Below, in pieces: positions 3,534 to 19,781 of a stretch of 20,377 bases of DNA. The number at the start of each line of letters is the position of its first letter. Within the stretch, counting starts at the first letter, position 1. This DNA comes from a virus, in the IMG/VR virus record IMGVR_UViG_3300030450_001717, positions 1-20,377 of that record; one strand, 5' to 3'. Made by a program: the position numbers and the translations under genes. The notes under the pieces are model-generated. The model was not told the origin of the DNA. It ran no database searches and was given only the letters and a program-made list of their open reading frames with translations.

Positions 3534-3564
3534 AAAAAGGGGAAGCCCTAAAAAGAGCCTCCCC
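3534..3564 (-). terminator. Intrinsic terminator after the capsid gene
   Basis: Read on the minus strand, GGGGAGGCTC - TTTTTA - GGGCTTCCCC can form a 10-bp stem (8 Watson-Crick pairs and 2 G-T wobbles) with a 6-base loop. It is followed at once by TTTTTCTCTTTCT. The stem is at 3539-3564, 32 bases past the capsid stop. T7 has its main terminator T-phi in the same place, after gene 10. Partial read-through would supply the tail genes. Confidence 0.85.
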
Positions 3565-3595
3565 TCCCAATTCAACTGAATTGTGCTACACGTTA

Positions 3596-4579
3596 TTAGC
3601 TGGTTGCGGCATCAATACCGTAGATGCACTCCGGGCGAAGAACCCCGTGACCTATAGCCATACGAGAAAGCATCAAGGTGCCTTGGCGTTCAATCTGGTA
3701 CTCGCTTTCCGAAGCGATATCCATTAAGTGAACGGACCCTAGCCCTTGTTTCTGCATAACCATTGCTACGTATGTACGAGCGTCATGGTCATAATCAGTT
3801 GTGGCTGATCCAGCTTGAGAACCACTTAATGTAGCCGTTCCATGCTGTAACGCCATGTTGTTTGTGGGAACAACTTCAAAGCCAGCAACTTTCATTAAGT
3901 TGCCATCAGCTTTAGAACCATTACCTTCCCCACCGAAATCACGATCCAAGAATGATCCATCTTGAATTAAATCCCAATAGACCGTAGGTGTCACAAAGAC
4001 AGTGCGATCTTCGTCAGGAATACTACCAGCATCAAAGGCGGCAGCGGCGGTGTAGATAGCGTCAATAATCTGCGTGATAGTTGGAGTAGCGGTTCCAATA
4101 GCAACACGAGTTGCGGAACCTTGCTCCGTAACCGCACCAGCGGTTCCAGCGGCAATAGCCTTAAACGCCATACCAAACAGGTTAGTGTCGTATACCTGTG
4201 CTAAAGCATCACCCATCTGACGAGTGTATTCACCACGAACTTCGTAGTGATTCTTAGCCTCTTCGTAATTACTGAGAAATACGTCAGTTACTAAGAGGTC
4301 ATCAATGGTAATTACTTTTTCACCTTGGTTTACGGCTTGACCTAAAATGACTTGACCTGGTTGGTGGTAGCCAGCGTTTACGCGGCCTATGGCAGGGAAC
4401 TGTGCGCTGGACCCTGACGAAATGTTACGAATACGGTGACGTTCCTTCATCACCGTCTTCTTGTTGAACGTTGCCATGACTTCGCCGCTCCAAACCTTTA
4501 AGAAAAGGTTATTGGAATCCTTCGGACCAGCCGAAGTTGCAGCGTTAGTCGCAGAAAACGATCTAGCTGAATAACTCAT
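3596..4579 (-). CDS. Major capsid protein (T7 gp10A-like)
   Basis: A 327-residue protein (T7 gp10A is 344). Conserved blocks match T7 gp10: NLFLKVWSGEVMATF near residue 25, RNISSGSSAQFPAIGR near residue 52, EKVITIDDLLVTDVF, NHYEVRGEYTRQMGDALA, and near the C-terminus MAIGHGVLRPECIYG. It is an HK97-fold shell protein. A longer reading frame starts 11 codons upstream, but ATG at 4579 has AAAGGA 7-8 bases before it and gives the normal N-terminus, so it is chosen. The gene has its own 232-base leader containing a promoter-like repeat and hairpins, and its own terminator 32 bases after the stop, so it is set up as a separately expressed unit, fitting its need for high copy number. Confidence 0.95.
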   Translation of the reverse strand: MSYSARSFSATNAATSAGPKDSNNLFLKVWSGEVMATFNKKTVMKERHRIRNISSGSSAQFPAIGRVNAGYHQPGQVILGQAVNQGEKVITIDDLLVTDVFLSNYEEAKNHYEVRGEYTRQMGDALAQVYDTNLFGMAFKAIAAGTAGAVTEQGSATRVAIGTATPTITQIIDAIYTAAAAFDAGSIPDEDRTVFVTPTVYWDLIQDGSFLDRDFGGEGNGSKADGNLMKVAGFEVVPTNNMALQHGTATLSGSQAGSATTDYDHDARTYVAMVMQKQGLGSVHLMDIASESEYQIERQGTLMLSRMAIGHGVLRPECIYGIDAATS

Positions 4580-4644
4580 TAGTTTATCCTTTATGAGTGT
4601 TTTGATGAGCAAACATCAACGGACTCACAAATTGTCTCTTTAGG

Positions 4645-4677
4645 TTGTCCTCGCAAGGGCCTATTTAACGCTTGTGT
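4645..4677 (-). promoter_or_regulatory. Candidate phage RNA polymerase promoter, copy 2 (capsid leader)
   Basis: On the minus strand this reads ACACAA-GCG-TTAAATA, then GGCCC, TTGCGA and GGACAA. The same string, with the same 3-base spacer between ACACAA and TTAAATA, occurs at 8309-8342; about 27 of 35 aligned positions agree. Both copies lie in the only two long intergenic gaps, downstream of a hairpin terminator and upstream of a structural gene block. A block of about 17 bases ending in ATA followed by GG is the size and shape of T7-class promoters (T7: CACTATAGGG). If transcription starts at the GG, the capsid leader would be about 80 bases. The function is inferred. Confidence 0.55.
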
Positions 4678-4725: not shown

Positions 4726-4748
4726 GGTGTTCCTAAAGAGGAACCACC
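4726..4748 (-). other. Hairpin with TCTTTA loop in the capsid leader
   Basis: Minus strand GGTGGTTCC - TCTTTA - GGAACACC forms an 8-bp stem with one bulged G. The stretch CTCTTTAGG, spanning the loop, is the exact complement of CCTAAAGAG at 4644-4636 further down the same transcript, so two alternative structures are possible. It forms a tandem pair with the hairpin at 4703-4723. Confidence 0.5.
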
Positions 4749-4811: not shown

Positions 4812-5048
4812 TTAGGAATTACGTGATCGGTTTCGTTTTTTAGATTGAATTCTAAGATTAGTGAAACTGTTATTCGTTGGGTTACGATCACGGTGGTCAA
4901 CGTCTTTACCTTTAATCGTTAACTCACCATACCTTTTAGCCACTGCGCGACGAGCACGTTTACGTGCGGCATTACGCACTCGTTGCTTCGGTTGCTTATG
5001 GTAATTATCGTATTCTTTTCGGTAGTTTCGCTTAGATGCTATAGTCAC
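4812..5048 (-). CDS. Small HNH-endonuclease-like protein
   Basis: A 78-residue, very basic protein. An Arg/Lys-rich N-terminal half (residues 1-40) leads into KDVDHRDRNPTNNSFTNLRI at about residues 48-67, the DxDHxDxNPxNNxxxNLR core of HNH-type nucleases, and it ends in KKRNRSRNS. Small proteins with this core are common in marine phages and are usually annotated as HNH endonucleases; with only the core and a basic arm, it may also act as a DNA-binding protein without cleavage. The start is GTG at 5048, supported by GAGGG 7 bases upstream; that Shine-Dalgarno sequence overlaps the stop of the preceding hydrolase gene. It lies between that gene and the terminator upstream of the capsid. It is not flanked by signs of an intron, so it looks like a free-standing accessory gene. 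Confidence 0.7.
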   Translation of the reverse strand: MTIASKRNYRKEYDNYHKQPKQRVRNAARKRARRAVAKRYGELTIKGKDVDHRDRNPTNNSFTNLRIQSKKRNRSRNS

Positions 5049-5516: not shown

Positions 5517-6305
5517 TTACATAATGTTAGATCGTGATAACTTTGTTTCGACATCTGAACGAAAGGCAGGGTCTTTTCTATAACGATCATCGTTCATATC
5601 GGTTAGTAATTCCGAAACAGAGCGATAAGCATTACCTTGCGTCGATGCATTAGCTCCTTCAAGAGATGCATTAGGTTCAAATGAACCGTTAGATTGAAAT
5701 CGTGCTTGAAGTCCTTTAACAGCTAAAATCATCTGATCTTTCTGTCCAGACGTAACTGCATCGTTAAACGTGGAGATTTCCGAAGGTTCTAAGGTATCTT
5801 GTGCCCAAGAAATCATTGAGTCATACGTTTCTTTACCACCCACCGAAGTGTATATGGCACTGGTAGTTGCGTCTGCCAATGCCGCTTGACCTTCGATATA
5901 TTGGTTAACCAATGCTTTCGGAATTCCAGCATCTTCCAGTGATTTATAGGAATCTGTTGATAGCTCTCCGTTAGAATCGTATTCCGCTTGTAAGTCATCA
6001 AAGTCTAATCCAGCTTTTTGGATTATCTCTTCAGCTTCATCTTGAGGTGAACTCTCTGTTTCCTCGTTAGTCCCTTTTGCTTTCTCAAGCTCTGTATAGG
6101 ACTTCAATAAAGCATCGACGTTGACCTCACCACTTTCAGCGTTCCAGAATTTCGCTGGTACGCCTTCAGGTGGGCTGGACGAACTAGGTTCAGAGTCCGA
6201 AGACTCTTGAGGTGCTTCGTCGGTCAACCCCATTTCACGAGCCTCTTCCTCAAGGGAAGGTCCAGTATTTTCGGTACTGGTATCTATTGTAACTCTATCA
6301 ACCAT
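5517..6305 (-). CDS. Capsid assembly scaffolding protein (T7 gp9-like)
   Basis: A 262-residue acidic protein with low-complexity Ser/Glu/Pro sequence in the first 50 residues, then the scaffold signature EGVPAKFWNAESGEVNVDAL and LLKSYTELEKAKG at about residues 47-75. The middle is helical, and the C-terminus is charged (YRKDPAFRSDVETKLSRSNIM), the end expected to contact the capsid protein. T7 gp9 is about 307 residues. It guides assembly of the procapsid around the portal and is then lost. Its ATG shares a base with the portal stop (TAATG), and AAGGAG lies 10-11 bases upstream. It is placed between portal and capsid as in T7, but here separated from the capsid by two accessory genes. Confidence 0.9.
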   Translation of the reverse strand: MVDRVTIDTSTENTGPSLEEEAREMGLTDEAPQESSDSEPSSSSPPEGVPAKFWNAESGEVNVDALLKSYTELEKAKGTNEETESSPQDEAEEIIQKAGLDFDDLQAEYDSNGELSTDSYKSLEDAGIPKALVNQYIEGQAALADATTSAIYTSVGGKETYDSMISWAQDTLEPSEISTFNDAVTSGQKDQMILAVKGLQARFQSNGSFEPNASLEGANASTQGNAYRSVSELLTDMNDDRYRKDPAFRSDVETKLSRSNIM

Positions 6306-7882
6306 TATTCAGTAGGTGCTCCTTGTTCCGCTACAGTATCGGCTGCTACTTTTGCTGCTGGTGCAACCGCTGGTTTAGCCATATCCATCATCATGGCTTG
6401 TTGTTGTTGTTGTTGAAGGGCTTGTTCTTCTTGTTGCATTTGTTCAGGAGATTTAACCAAACCATCCATATCAATACCAAGAGATACACCACCTCGTTTA
6501 ATTAGATCATCGATGTTTATTCGCTTGAAACCTTCTTCACCAAGAGGCATCACCACTTGTTGAATAAAGACTTGTATTTTCGTTAGATCGTGTCCTCGTC
6601 CCAACGCTTCTAGCCCTGTGGTTATTTGAGGTTCAACCACTCCTTTAGGGAGTTTAGGAAGTTTTTTGGAACGTTCCATTCGGTCTTCGACCCGTTGCAC
6701 TAAAGGTAATTGTAACTCTTGAGAGAAAACCGCAAAGTTTCCTCCAAGTGCATCCTCTAGCTCTTGGGCCATTCGTCTTATTTCTTCAGCCGTTACTCTT
6801 TCTGCTTGCCTTTGAATCGCAGTATTGAGAAGGAACGCGAAAGAGAGTCGCGTATTGACTTCAGAAAGAACCCGTTCTGCCGTAGCCATATCAGCTTGCT
6901 TATGAATTTGGAGAACAGAAACATCACCATCTTGACCAGTGACAACATCAAGGTTTTCACTCTCTGCCAAATCTTTTTCATCAGTAACTCCGTTTGGGGA
7001 AACAAGAAAGAGAACTTTAGCGGCGGCTGCTGCGCTTTCGACGATGGCGCGAGACAATCCTTCAGAAGTAATGAGATCACCTTTGTGTTCCTCCGCGTAT
7101 GAACGCCCCCAATCCTCCCCGTCAATTCCGGTCCAGCGTAAGGCTAGAACTGGAGGTCTGGTAACGTCCCATTTTCCTTCAGAGCCAGGAATTAATATTC
7201 CTCTTATTTCCTGATACCCAATAATATGTTTGCCTTGCCTCACGTACTTCGTGAAAACTTCACAAATATCAGGGCCTTTAGAATTAGAATCCGAAGGAAG
7301 TGTTTGCGCGTAGGACTTCTCTGGAAGTAAAGCAAGAAGTTCTTCAGGTAGCGCATCTTTATGGATTTCCTCTTTAATGAGTATCTCCACAAATTCTCCC
7401 CCCGGAGAGCGTTTAATAACGTACTGATCCATTTGGAAAATACGCATCCCTATTTTTTTCGGGAAGGTAAGTAGCACGTTTCCACAAACGATCAACTGCT
7501 TGAACGCTTCGTTCAGCTTTGGTCGCAAACCGGAAGTTTCAATTTCGGTCTGAACCGCTCGTTCACGGGTATTTAACGCTTCTTCGATTTGAGATCGGGC
7601 TGTAGGGTCTTGAGCTAGTTCTTCTAACGTGTAGTCATCAACTGAGTAACGGAAGAATGGCGTGTTCGGAGGGAATAATGATAGCATTAACTTTGCCGCT
7701 AAATTATTCACCCCTCTCGCCCCGATACCTTGGTATGGGGTGTATAGGACCGTATGCCGTCCATGTTCCGACTCTGGCATTAAGGCTGGTATTGTTAATC
7801 GAGCACACTCCCGTGCTCGTTTTAAATACGGGTCACGGTCAGTAGCAAGTTTATCGTAACGTTGCTTGCAAGTCTGAGCCAT
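6305..7882 (-). CDS. Head-tail connector / portal protein (T7 gp8-like)
   Basis: A 525-residue protein (T7 gp8 is 536). The N-terminal part DRDPYLKRARECARLTIPAL, then YTPYQGIGARGVNNLAAKLM, then LSLFPPNTPFFR matches gp8 closely, as do FKQLIVCGNVLLTFP and RQAERVTAEEIRRMAQELE in the stem and clip region. It forms the dodecameric ring at the capsid vertex through which DNA is packaged and ejected. The C-terminal tail is Gln/Met-rich, with a run of CAA codons near 6397-6416, followed by an Ala-rich end; such a tail is usual in this family. ATG at 7882 has AAGGTG 8 bases upstream, which overlaps the stop of the preceding small gene. It is intact. Confidence 0.95.
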   Translation of the reverse strand: MAQTCKQRYDKLATDRDPYLKRARECARLTIPALMPESEHGRHTVLYTPYQGIGARGVNNLAAKLMLSLFPPNTPFFRYSVDDYTLEELAQDPTARSQIEEALNTRERAVQTEIETSGLRPKLNEAFKQLIVCGNVLLTFPKKIGMRIFQMDQYVIKRSPGGEFVEILIKEEIHKDALPEELLALLPEKSYAQTLPSDSNSKGPDICEVFTKYVRQGKHIIGYQEIRGILIPGSEGKWDVTRPPVLALRWTGIDGEDWGRSYAEEHKGDLITSEGLSRAIVESAAAAAKVLFLVSPNGVTDEKDLAESENLDVVTGQDGDVSVLQIHKQADMATAERVLSEVNTRLSFAFLLNTAIQRQAERVTAEEIRRMAQELEDALGGNFAVFSQELQLPLVQRVEDRMERSKKLPKLPKGVVEPQITTGLEALGRGHDLTKIQVFIQQVVMPLGEEGFKRINIDDLIKRGGVSLGIDMDGLVKSPEQMQQEEQALQQQQQQAMMMDMAKPAVAPAAKVAADTVAEQGAPTE

Positions 7883-7893
7883 ATGAAATCACC

Positions 7894-8106
7894 TTACGTG
7901 GGTATAGAGAGTCCGGTAGTCGGAGCGGAACTGTTAATAGCAAGCGCATTAGTTCGATACTTCTTCGTACCTTTTTTCTTCGCTTTTTGGGTATCAGATG
8001 TTTTCTTAATTGTCTCAGGAGCCTCTTGCTCAAGAACTGGAGGGGGTGCAGGGGGTTCTGGAACTGGCTGTGGGGCTGGGGCTGGTGCCGCTCGACTCAT
8101 ACACAT
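7894..8106 (-). CDS. Small proline-rich virion/tail-assembly protein (T7 gp7.3-like position)
   Basis: A 70-residue protein with a Pro/Ala-rich N-terminal half (APAPAPQPVPEPPAPPPV), a Lys-rich centre (KKTSDTQKAKKKGTKKYRTN) and a C-terminal GLSIPT. A small protein with this make-up directly upstream of the portal is common in marine T7-like phages. Position and the basic segment before a short Gly-containing C-terminus recall T7 gp7.3, a tail assembly and host-range protein (which ends KKSLSVARSSGGGINI), but similarity is limited to composition and the tail end. ATG at 8106 has AGGA 8-9 bases upstream; a second in-frame ATG lies two codons later. The stop lies within the Shine-Dalgarno sequence of the portal gene. 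Confidence 0.6.
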   Translation of the reverse strand: MCMSRAAPAPAPQPVPEPPAPPPVLEQEAPETIKKTSDTQKAKKKGTKKYRTNALAINSSAPTTGLSIPT

Positions 8107-8111
8107 GAGGA

Positions 8112-8306
8112 TTATCCTATTAAATTATCTTGTTGACTTTCATAGAGTTGCTTGAGTTTTCTAACAACACTGACTTGACCAATCTTAATATAAATGTCTT
8201 CTTGAGAAGTTCCTTTATTTGGGCAAGTATCTGGAAATAGTGTCTCTAAATACTCAAGTAATTCTGCGTTAACTTGAGGTAATGGGAGAGATTTTTTCTT
8301 CATCAT
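8112..8306 (-). CDS. Small conserved phage protein of unknown function
   Basis: A 64-residue protein: MMKKKSLPLPQVNAELLEYL, a short loop with a Pro/Cys/Lys segment, then a helix around IYIKIGQVSVVRKLKQLYES. I have an impression of similar short proteins upstream of the portal in marine T7-like phages but no function. It contains no motif I can name; a helix-turn-helix-sized fold is possible but not shown. It is the first gene after the promoter-like repeat at 8309-8342, so its leader would be under 25 bases. Two ATG codons in a row (8306 and 8303) follow the weak GGACAATA; the second gives better spacing. Five bases separate it from the next gene. Confidence 0.65.
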   Translation of the reverse strand: MMKKKSLPLPQVNAELLEYLETLFPDTCPNKGTSQEDIYIKIGQVSVVRKLKQLYESQQDNLIG

Positions 8307-8308
8307 TA

Positions 8309-8342
8309 TTGTCCAGTAAGGGGCCTTATTTAAAAGTTGTGT
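8309..8342 (-). promoter_or_regulatory. Candidate phage RNA polymerase promoter, copy 1 (structural block)
   Basis: Minus strand ACACAA-CTT-TTAAATA, then AGGCCCC, TTACT and GGACAA. It matches the element at 4645-4677 in the capsid leader at about 27 of 35 positions, with both conserved boxes at identical spacing. It begins directly after the T-run of the terminator that closes the reductase gene and ends 3 bases before the first structural-block gene. The paired arrangement terminator then repeat, seen twice, supports a promoter read by the phage-encoded polymerase. Confidence 0.55.
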
Positions 8343-8423: not shown

Positions 8424-10103
8424 TTATACTCCGCAGCTACCCCCGTGTCCGGTAATATCGCATACATCATGCGTTTCAACGTGTTCCTCAAACTCTTCAC
8501 CAAGTTTAGAAACAGCCTCACCGTATGGGACACTAACCAAAGGCTGACCACCACGAGAGCCATCAGGATAACAAGTGAAACCCCGAAGCCTATGAGCATA
8601 CTTTGCAAGGGTATGAGCAAAATCTGTAACGCCATCTTCGTTATTCTCCTTCGTGCCCCATGCTGGAAGGTTAATGGTCGAAGAAATAGCCATATCTACA
8701 TAGTCTTGAACATCTGCTTGGAAGGCTATTCGCCGCTCGTAATCAGATGCTAGGTCGATAGAACTTTCAATGGACTCCGGTTTAACACCATAGAGGTCGA
8801 TCAGTTCTTGAGCGGCAGCATCAATTACGTATTGGTAGTGCCATCGTGTTCCTGATTTAAGGTAACGCCGTCTATAAGCGACTGCGTAAACTGGCTCAAT
8901 TCCCGTAGAGGTTCCTGCAAGGATGCCAATGGAACCTGTAGGTGCGACGGCGCGGTTGGCGATAGGGCGGCTAATTGAGAGTGTATCTGCAAAACAAGCT
9001 GACGTATGGTCACTAACGTGCTTATATACTTTGAGCCATCTATGGAGTTCTGGTGAGACATGATATTTTTCTCCATGTTTTATTAGCATCTCATGGACAC
9101 CCATCATCCCAAGTCCAAGCCTCCGGTTTTTCATACGGGTTTGCTCGACTTTAGGGTACGGCAATTCAGCTTTCATGGTTCCACAAAGCAGAAACTTTGT
9201 TGCCAACTCAGTGATCTCTTTGAGTTCATTGAGGTCAGAGATTCGTCCAAAGTTTAAACTACCTAAGTTACAAACATCAGAGTCATCAGATGAGGTCACT
9301 TCGGTACAAGCATTGCGAAGAGTTTCACCTTCCTTCTCAAAGAAGTTAAAACTAAATCCTGGTTCCGCTGATGATAAAGCCTGTTTGACATTGGTAAGAA
9401 AAGTTGAACCAACTTTACCTGTATTCCAATATTTAAGTAACCAATCTGTGTCGTAATTAACAGAGATGTTTGTCATATCCATAGGGGCTGGAAAGTTGAA
9501 ATCTTGTATCTTTACATCTGCTAACGTTAACCCACTTGTTCCCACCTTTTGTGTATGCCAATCCTTACATGAGAGAAACTCTTGTATATCCCCATGTTTC
9601 CAGTTGAGGCTGGCGTAGATAGCAGATCGACGGGAACCCCCCTGCATCACCCGTCTACCAATCTCGTTTATCATTTGCATCTTGGGGATAGGCCCAGAGG
9701 ATAAACCTCCGGTCCCACCCAATGTCTGACCAGCAGGGCGATACACAGAGTAATCAACCCCGATACCACCGCCTGTCATTAATGCACTTTCAGATTTCCA
9801 TGAGAGGTTTGCCCAATCTTCACGAGTATCTTCTTCTGCTTTAAGTAAATAGCAGTTATTGTAAAAGGAACGCTGTCTCCCGGCATAGTATAAGTATCTT
9901 CCACCGGGAATAAATTTTAGGTCGGTGACATAATGTATGAGTGTTTCAATTTCATCGTTGCTTAAATAGGGGGTGCACACTTCCGTTATTAATACACGAG
10001 ATAGATCAGCCCATGTTTCACAACCCGTGTGTGCGTACTTATAGTTAAAGATGTCCTCGCTAAATTGAGAGCGGAACATAGGATTCCTGTTGGATCGAAA
10101 CAT
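8424..10103 (-). CDS. nrdJ: Ribonucleotide reductase, probably class II (adenosylcobalamin-dependent)
   Basis: A 559-residue catalytic subunit that makes deoxyribonucleotides for phage replication. Visible residues are: NNC at C84 and C278 in DVCNLGSLNFG as the redox pair of the active site; N264-A-C266-T-E268 as the Asn/thiyl Cys/Glu triad; SALMTGGGIGVDYS near 106-119; APTGSIGILAG and TGIEPVYAVAYRRRY around 387-414, a PTGxIxxxAGxSxGIEP pattern that fits class II enzymes well; and a C-terminal Cys pair, C548 and C557 (CDITGHGGSCGV), for reduction by a thioredoxin-like partner. No ATP-cone domain precedes the core, and no small radical subunit is seen in the window, which favours class II. It is shorter than typical bacterial NrdJ. 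The start at 10103 is supported by AAGGA 7-8 bases upstream. Placement between exonuclease and portal is as in marine cyanopodoviruses. Class I remains possible if a small subunit lies outside the window. Confidence 0.85.
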   Translation of the reverse strand: MFRSNRNPMFRSQFSEDIFNYKYAHTGCETWADLSRVLITEVCTPYLSNDEIETLIHYVTDLKFIPGGRYLYYAGRQRSFYNNCYLLKAEEDTREDWANLSWKSESALMTGGGIGVDYSVYRPAGQTLGGTGGLSSGPIPKMQMINEIGRRVMQGGSRRSAIYASLNWKHGDIQEFLSCKDWHTQKVGTSGLTLADVKIQDFNFPAPMDMTNISVNYDTDWLLKYWNTGKVGSTFLTNVKQALSSAEPGFSFNFFEKEGETLRNACTEVTSSDDSDVCNLGSLNFGRISDLNELKEITELATKFLLCGTMKAELPYPKVEQTRMKNRRLGLGMMGVHEMLIKHGEKYHVSPELHRWLKVYKHVSDHTSACFADTLSISRPIANRAVAPTGSIGILAGTSTGIEPVYAVAYRRRYLKSGTRWHYQYVIDAAAQELIDLYGVKPESIESSIDLASDYERRIAFQADVQDYVDMAISSTINLPAWGTKENNEDGVTDFAHTLAKYAHRLRGFTCYPDGSRGGQPLVSVPYGEAVSKLGEEFEEHVETHDVCDITGHGGSCGV

Positions 10104-19720: not shown

Positions 19721-19781
19721 TAGTGCAGTATGGGTCCCTAATGGTGCCCACCTCTATCGTATTTGCTAGTAAGTTTCGGCA

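Follow-up and report, generated by a model that had tools for sequence, protein, structure and literature searches.

A repeat pair in a T7-like virus genome: probably a phage-polymerase promoter and a capsid-leader RNA hairpin

Two gaps between genes of a virus with a T7-like RNA polymerase hold similar stretches of about 34 bases ahead of structural genes, which a sequence-only reading had taken for two copies of a promoter of the phage polymerase. The question is whether both copies are promoters and, if so, where their conserved part lies. The DNA analysed here (the window, 20,377 nt of IMG/VR record IMGVR_UViG_3300030450_001717) covers most of a 24.3-kb virus record and carries its genes on the minus strand (Table 1). 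They follow each other as RNA polymerase, replication genes, a ribonucleotide-reductase-like gene, two small genes and portal, and then scaffold, endolysin, HNH, capsid, and tail tubular A and B. The RNA polymerase retains the T7 catalytic residues D537, K631, Y639, H811 and D812. From the comparison of sequences we consider it probable that the pair is composed of two unrelated elements. One would be a T7-class promoter ahead of the portal unit, the other a hairpin of the capsid leader RNA with a presumably post-transcriptional role.

The relatives used in the comparison include G003 (IMGVR_UViG_3300031162_000053; 87% identity to the window in the capsid, 77% in the portal and 59% in the RNA polymerase), the L055-L060 group (portal 75% identical), and L003g and L004g (RNA polymerase 47-48% identical). 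Nucleotide searches of named phages with the window and with its capsid leader gave no match.

Table 1. Features of the window discussed in the text.
Feature	Position	Strand	Evidence or remark
Predicted portal-unit promoter, AATAAGGCCCCTTACT followed by GGA	8312..8330	-	predicted +1 at 8314; matrix rank and orthologous sites
Predicted RNA polymerase gene promoter, ATTAGGGACCCATACT followed by GCA	19724..19742	-	predicted +1 at 19726; 0 mismatches to the L003g/L004g motif
HP-B, UAGG-C-CCU-UGCG-AGG-ACAA-CCUA	4641..4663	-	covariance model and family evidence
HP-A, second leader hairpin, GUUCCU-CUUU-AGGAAC	4729..4744	-	U-NNUU-A loop
Box ACACAAGCGTTAAATA, capsid copy	4662..4677	-	exact match; 3' end overlaps HP-B; unconserved in relatives
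Box ACACAACTTTTAAATA, portal copy	8327..8342	-	exact match; 3' end overlaps upstream edge of promoter; unconserved in relatives
T7-like single-subunit RNA polymerase, 822 aa	17220..19688	-	phrog_414, E=2.7e-226
Ribonucleotide-reductase-like gene	8424-10103	-	
Portal unit	6305..8306	-	small genes 8112-8306 and 7894-8106, portal 6305-7882
Major capsid gene, downstream of HP-B leader	3596..4579	-	start codon 4579; phrog_267, E=7.5e-69

The repeat pair

Both copies of the proposed box, ACACAA-N3-TTAAATA, are present on the minus strand without mismatch (4677-4662 and 8342-8327), and no other copy with up to two mismatches is found in the 24.3-kb record. The claimed identity of about 27 of 35 positions came down slightly, to 25 identities over 35 columns with one gap, upon local alignment of the two gaps. 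This alignment (score 14) has a p of 0.011 against dinucleotide shuffles if taken as a single pair and of about 0.1 once the roughly ten available gap pairs are counted; the portal gap is nearly as similar to the gap upstream of the RNA polymerase gene (p=0.027). The similarity is real, but marginal and by itself weak evidence. The two copies look alike because each has an AT-rich run and then GGCCC(C)TT...GGACAA. In the portal copy the last of these motifs immediately precedes the start codon (8306) of the gene that follows, and in the capsid copy it forms part of a hairpin. A search with the 13 fixed letters of the box at up to three mismatches gave 8 matches where 11.5 are expected, which is not above chance.

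A hairpin terminator had been described ahead of each copy. In the portal gap a terminator-like hairpin, GGGCTACAAAGA...TCTTTTTGTAAGCCCTTGTTTTT, can be recognised by eye and is missing from the list of a simple hairpin scan, while the capsid gap carries a strong hairpin, GCCCCTTCCC...GGGAGGGGGC, that has no U-run. A lack of conservation in related genomes had been named beforehand as one of the results that would refute the box. No copy was found in close relatives, including the orthologous gaps of those with structural proteins 75-87% identical (G003 and the L055-L060 group), and the box was rejected as a conserved promoter element on this ground. The gap upstream of the window's RNA polymerase gene does not contain it either.

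Predicted promoters of the portal unit and of the RNA polymerase gene

The L003g and L004g genomes each carry three copies, one of those in L004g with one change, of an [AT]-rich motif, ATTAGG[GT]NCCCATAC[AT]G. One copy precedes the RNA polymerase gene, another directly follows a terminator-like hairpin ahead of the portal unit, and the third is located in the late region. In the window the same motif is present without mismatch upstream of the RNA polymerase gene (ATTAGGGACCCATACTGCA), and a diverged copy (AATAAGGCCCCTTACTGGA), in which 3 of the 15 fixed positions depart from the consensus, is found upstream of the portal unit. With a matrix built from L003g, L004g and the window's RNA polymerase site, the portal site ranks 2 among about 48,600 positions; with a matrix from L003g and L004g only, the RNA polymerase site ranks 1 and the portal site 3 over the same number of positions. 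Inside its own gap the portal site has a p of 0.0018 in the matrix scan. Orthologous promoter-like sites occur in G003, the L055 group, L003g and L004g. In G003 a version particular to this genome, ATTACCNCTCANTACAG, stands in perfect form both before the RNA polymerase and before the portal unit, and the CRP roseophages have a separate promoter set of the TTAATCACCCTTATTAGA type.

These data point to a lineage-specific promoter of the T7-like polymerase that overlaps the copy at 8309 ahead of the portal unit, as had been proposed for this copy. Its core had been misplaced. The proposal put TTAAATA in the core and the start at the following GG (about 8325), while the conserved part is AATAAGGCCCCTTACT followed by GGA, with a predicted +1 at about 8314. 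TTAAATA would only form the upstream edge of this promoter, ACACAA falls outside it, and the core lies about 10 bases downstream of the proposed one. The partner of this promoter, assigned earlier to the capsid copy, instead precedes the RNA polymerase gene (19742-19724), where it had been overlooked. Both sites belong to a genome that encodes a T7-like single-subunit RNA polymerase, and their motif occurs more than once in this genome and again, in the sense direction, at the corresponding positions of relatives.

The leader predicted downstream of the portal promoter is just 8 nt long, and the GGA at its +1 may double as ribosome site. The mapped promoters of Pseudomonas phage LUZ100, which share this anatomy, help to place the +1 at the G after TACT. 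Scanning IMG/VR for the promoter core gave just L003/L004 and scattered single matches without related genes, so that few phages seem to share this version of the promoter. A promoter of the sigma-70 type was also considered for the portal site and rejected, since its -35/-10 hexamers are not above chance: there is one weak 9/12 match (8334-8305), and four matches were found in the region where shuffles give six. A further match to the promoter motif with two mismatches, GTTAGTGTCCCATACGG, is located at 8521-8537 (minus strand) within the ribonucleotide-reductase-like gene, close to its 3' end; it is probably a chance match, since it encodes the conserved residues VSVPYG.

The motif also varies with the specificity loop of the polymerase, taken as T7 residues 740-770. 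The loop of the window resembles that of L003/L004 (RVKT...DG...KPR, with lysine at 748 and 758) and their promoters are of a GGG/CCC type, whereas the G003 loop reads RIET..., with E748 and Q758, and its promoter has CC...CTCA. The promoter type thus tracks residues 748 and 758, although by overall identity G003 is nearer to the window than L003/L004 are. Such a pattern would not be expected of a motif found by chance. The G003 promoter, ATTACCCCTCACTACAG, is close to the T3 promoter. T7 polymerase is switched to the T3 promoter by an acidic side chain at position 748, as in the N748D mutant (PMC11477551, PMC4633624), and the G003 polymerase likewise has an acidic residue at this position. 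The window-L003-L004 type and the G003 type appear to constitute two new promoter/polymerase pairings in which promoter and specificity loop change together.

These promoters add new members to a class already known. They share with T7/T3-class promoters the length of about 17-19 bp, the start at G, the AT-rich upstream part and the location before the RNA polymerase and structural genes. The window type differs from these by GG(G) at -10 to -12 and CCC at -6 to -8, by lysines at 748 and 758, by the few copies per genome and by a promoter placed ahead of the polymerase gene itself. The latter arrangement, a positive-feedback layout, is reported for LUZ100, where ONT-cappable-seq mapped eight promoters of the type AATTACCACACAG..TGG, among them phi1 before the RNA polymerase gene and promoters before structural genes (PMC10134795). 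The window resembles LUZ100 in having a phage-specific motif and in promoter placement and start register, and differs in sequence and in number, two or three promoters found here against eight mapped ones (PMC10134795). The phage polymerase of the window would read the portal promoter (-16 to -1, start at G8314) and also that of its own gene, from 19726, which would amount to positive feedback.

The hairpin of the capsid leader

The capsid copy (4677-4645) probably carries no such promoter. In the gap that holds it the best score of the promoter matrix is -6.4, rank 72, which gives no ground for placing this site in the T7 class. In L003g, L004g, CRP-804, G003 and the window, the 400 nt ahead of the capsid gene contain no copy of the promoter that the respective phage uses elsewhere (best matches with 6-8 mismatches, 6 in the window). 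For CRP-403 and CRP-118 it is the hairpin itself that matches best near the capsid gene, and poorly so, with 5 mismatches. LUZ100, in which the presence of the hairpin is doubtful, has its nearest mapped start about 560 nt upstream of the capsid gene. Of the earlier claim that both copies are promoters, the part on the portal copy stands, with its core shifted, and the capsid copy is better described as an RNA hairpin.

This hairpin, HP-B, is found about 60 nt upstream of the capsid start (4641 to 4579 in the window). It is characterised by an invariant bulge, A[CU]AA, opposite a C, a UNCG-type loop and a covarying stem; further outward the core continues with GG/CC, a mismatched step and a weaker three-pair stem. 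HP-B is conserved before the capsid gene in phages which differ in their promoters. G003 has CUAGG-C-CCC-UGCG-GGG-ACAA-CCUAG, and counterparts are seen in L051 (CUAGA...UCUAG), L060 (GAAG...CUUC) and L003 (CGC-UUCG-GCG-AUAA). Hairpins were aligned in subsets of equal length. A covariance model built from nine sequences with the window left out shows strong covariation. It finds HP-B as the sole good match in the window (E=0.0076, the next match having E=2), while the portal copy is at background (E 4.3). The window's hairpin, GGCCC[U]UGCG[A]GGACAACC, agrees with the family definition in having its free positions paired and lying on the same strand shortly before the capsid gene. Its inner stem is short (3 bp); taken alone it folds no better than shuffles, and it is not present in the lowest-energy structure of the whole window leader.

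A subset of the leaders, including that of the window, has a second hairpin of the U-NNUU-A type (HP-A) upstream of HP-B; this type occurs in 10 of 63 thinned leaders, with 0.8 expected from shuffles. The capsid leader of L098 holds two HP-B hairpins in tandem, at distances of about 164 and 94 nt from the capsid start. In G003 (L120) the ACAACCU of HP-B matches as complement an AGGUUGU that lies just past the hairpin (from about 14760). By eye this suggests that the two segments might pair in an alternative structure, and L051 shows a partly compensated counterpart (UAAUC/GGUUA).

Distribution and possible role of the hairpin

The HP-B core, GGCCCNNTGCGNNGGACAACC, was searched in the 2.9 million viral contigs of IMG/VR and matched at least 120 stretches, of which 119 were examined. 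Among these listed matches 115 of 119 loci are followed on the same strand by a region with capsid homology, and in 112 of the 115 the capsid starts 50-175 nt from the core. In the three others of the listed capsid-linked loci this distance exceeds 500 nt; at least L144 (contig of L068) among them belongs to a group with an apparently intron-split capsid gene. Three of the four listed loci without capsid run off the contig. The reversed core pattern gave one match. The four free stem positions are paired in all 71 distinct sequences among the listed matches, by GC, CG, UA, AU and a few G-U pairs, and in 45 thinned sequences this pairing is above every shuffled and slid control, as is that of the structure as a whole. 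The shorter core of the window type is present at 37 loci, 34 of them with capsid.

The covariance model detects the capsid leaders of the pelagiphages HTVC019P, HTVC119P and Jormungand and of four further roseophages, with a weak match in RHEph01. Carriers comprise pelagiphages, roseophages, a rhizobiophage and many uncultured phages. The capsid leaders of T7, KP32, RHph_I20 and S-CBP1 gave no HP-B match, and in Rfam 15 no family was above its curated threshold in the window's leader or in 14 loci of relatives. No description of HP-B was found in the literature searched, which consisted largely of freely readable papers; the article on the roseophage genomes is silent on both promoters and hairpins. 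HP-B appears to be undescribed and matches no Rfam family.

That both copies are promoters with ACACAA-N3-TTAAATA as core and a start at the next GG fits the two exact copies ahead of structural genes and the single-pair similarity of their gaps. This reading is hardly credible, as the box is absent from orthologous places and from the gap of the polymerase gene, its three variable letters would occupy -8 to -10, where T7-class promoters have their specificity, and HP-B accounts for the capsid copy. It is improbable, to a lesser degree, that next to the portal promoter described above a diverged promoter is hidden in HP-B, with capsid RNA starting at or near the hairpin as in the phi10 RNA of T7. 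T7 and KP32 do have a promoter at the equivalent place, HP-B comes within 5 mismatches of the CRP-403/118 promoters and its core begins with GG; however, the rank of 72 in the window's capsid gap, the lack of matches within 400 nt in L003g, L004g, CRP-804 and G003, and the constancy of HP-B across phages with different promoters speak against it, as does LUZ100, without a mapped start there, for what its doubtful hairpin version is worth. Covariation by itself cannot tell RNA from DNA hairpins, so that HP-B might be a DNA element such as a hairpin promoter of the N4 virion polymerase type or a packaging or recombination site. We regard this as very unlikely in view of the capsid sense strand and the fixed distance to the capsid start at 112 of the listed loci, the asymmetric bulge and the few G-U pairs.

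A promoter function of HP-B being unlikely, and there being no recognisable promoter directly before the capsid gene, a post-transcriptional role is favoured and is the most likely one. From its place in the capsid messenger, HP-B would as a leader hairpin shape the stability, processing or translation of this RNA, the first two being placed ahead of the last. A translational operator, bound by the capsid or another phage protein and tuning capsid synthesis, is possible but somewhat doubtful: the invariant bulge and UNCG-type loop on a covarying stem and the near-constant distance to the capsid start would suit it, but no binding protein is known, and at about 60 nt upstream the hairpin leaves the ribosome site uncovered. 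With the T7 phi10 leader HP-B has in common that a hairpin is found in the leader of the capsid message; it differs by its fixed bulge, its UNCG-type loop and the lack of an adjoining promoter, T7 and KP32 having a promoter at that place and no HP-B match. On balance we lean towards a widespread, undescribed structured RNA in the capsid leaders of many autographivirid phages that controls capsid output after transcription and replaces the T7-type capsid promoter. HP-B makes a strong candidate for a structured RNA of abundant marine phages; pelagiphage and roseophage isolates carrying it exist.

The capsid gene of L088 is split by an apparent group I intron (3538-4065; RF00028, 42.8 bits, E=1.7e-8, under the gathering score of 50), which bears an endonuclease-VII-like reading frame, and similar sequence is present in L067, L068/L144 and L105. 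In the window a small HNH reading frame (4812-5048, minus strand) lies immediately upstream of the capsid leader. This position is kept in G003, G010, G011, L003g, L004g and the CRP roseophages, and the frame may encode a homing endonuclease associated with the capsid locus or its leader.
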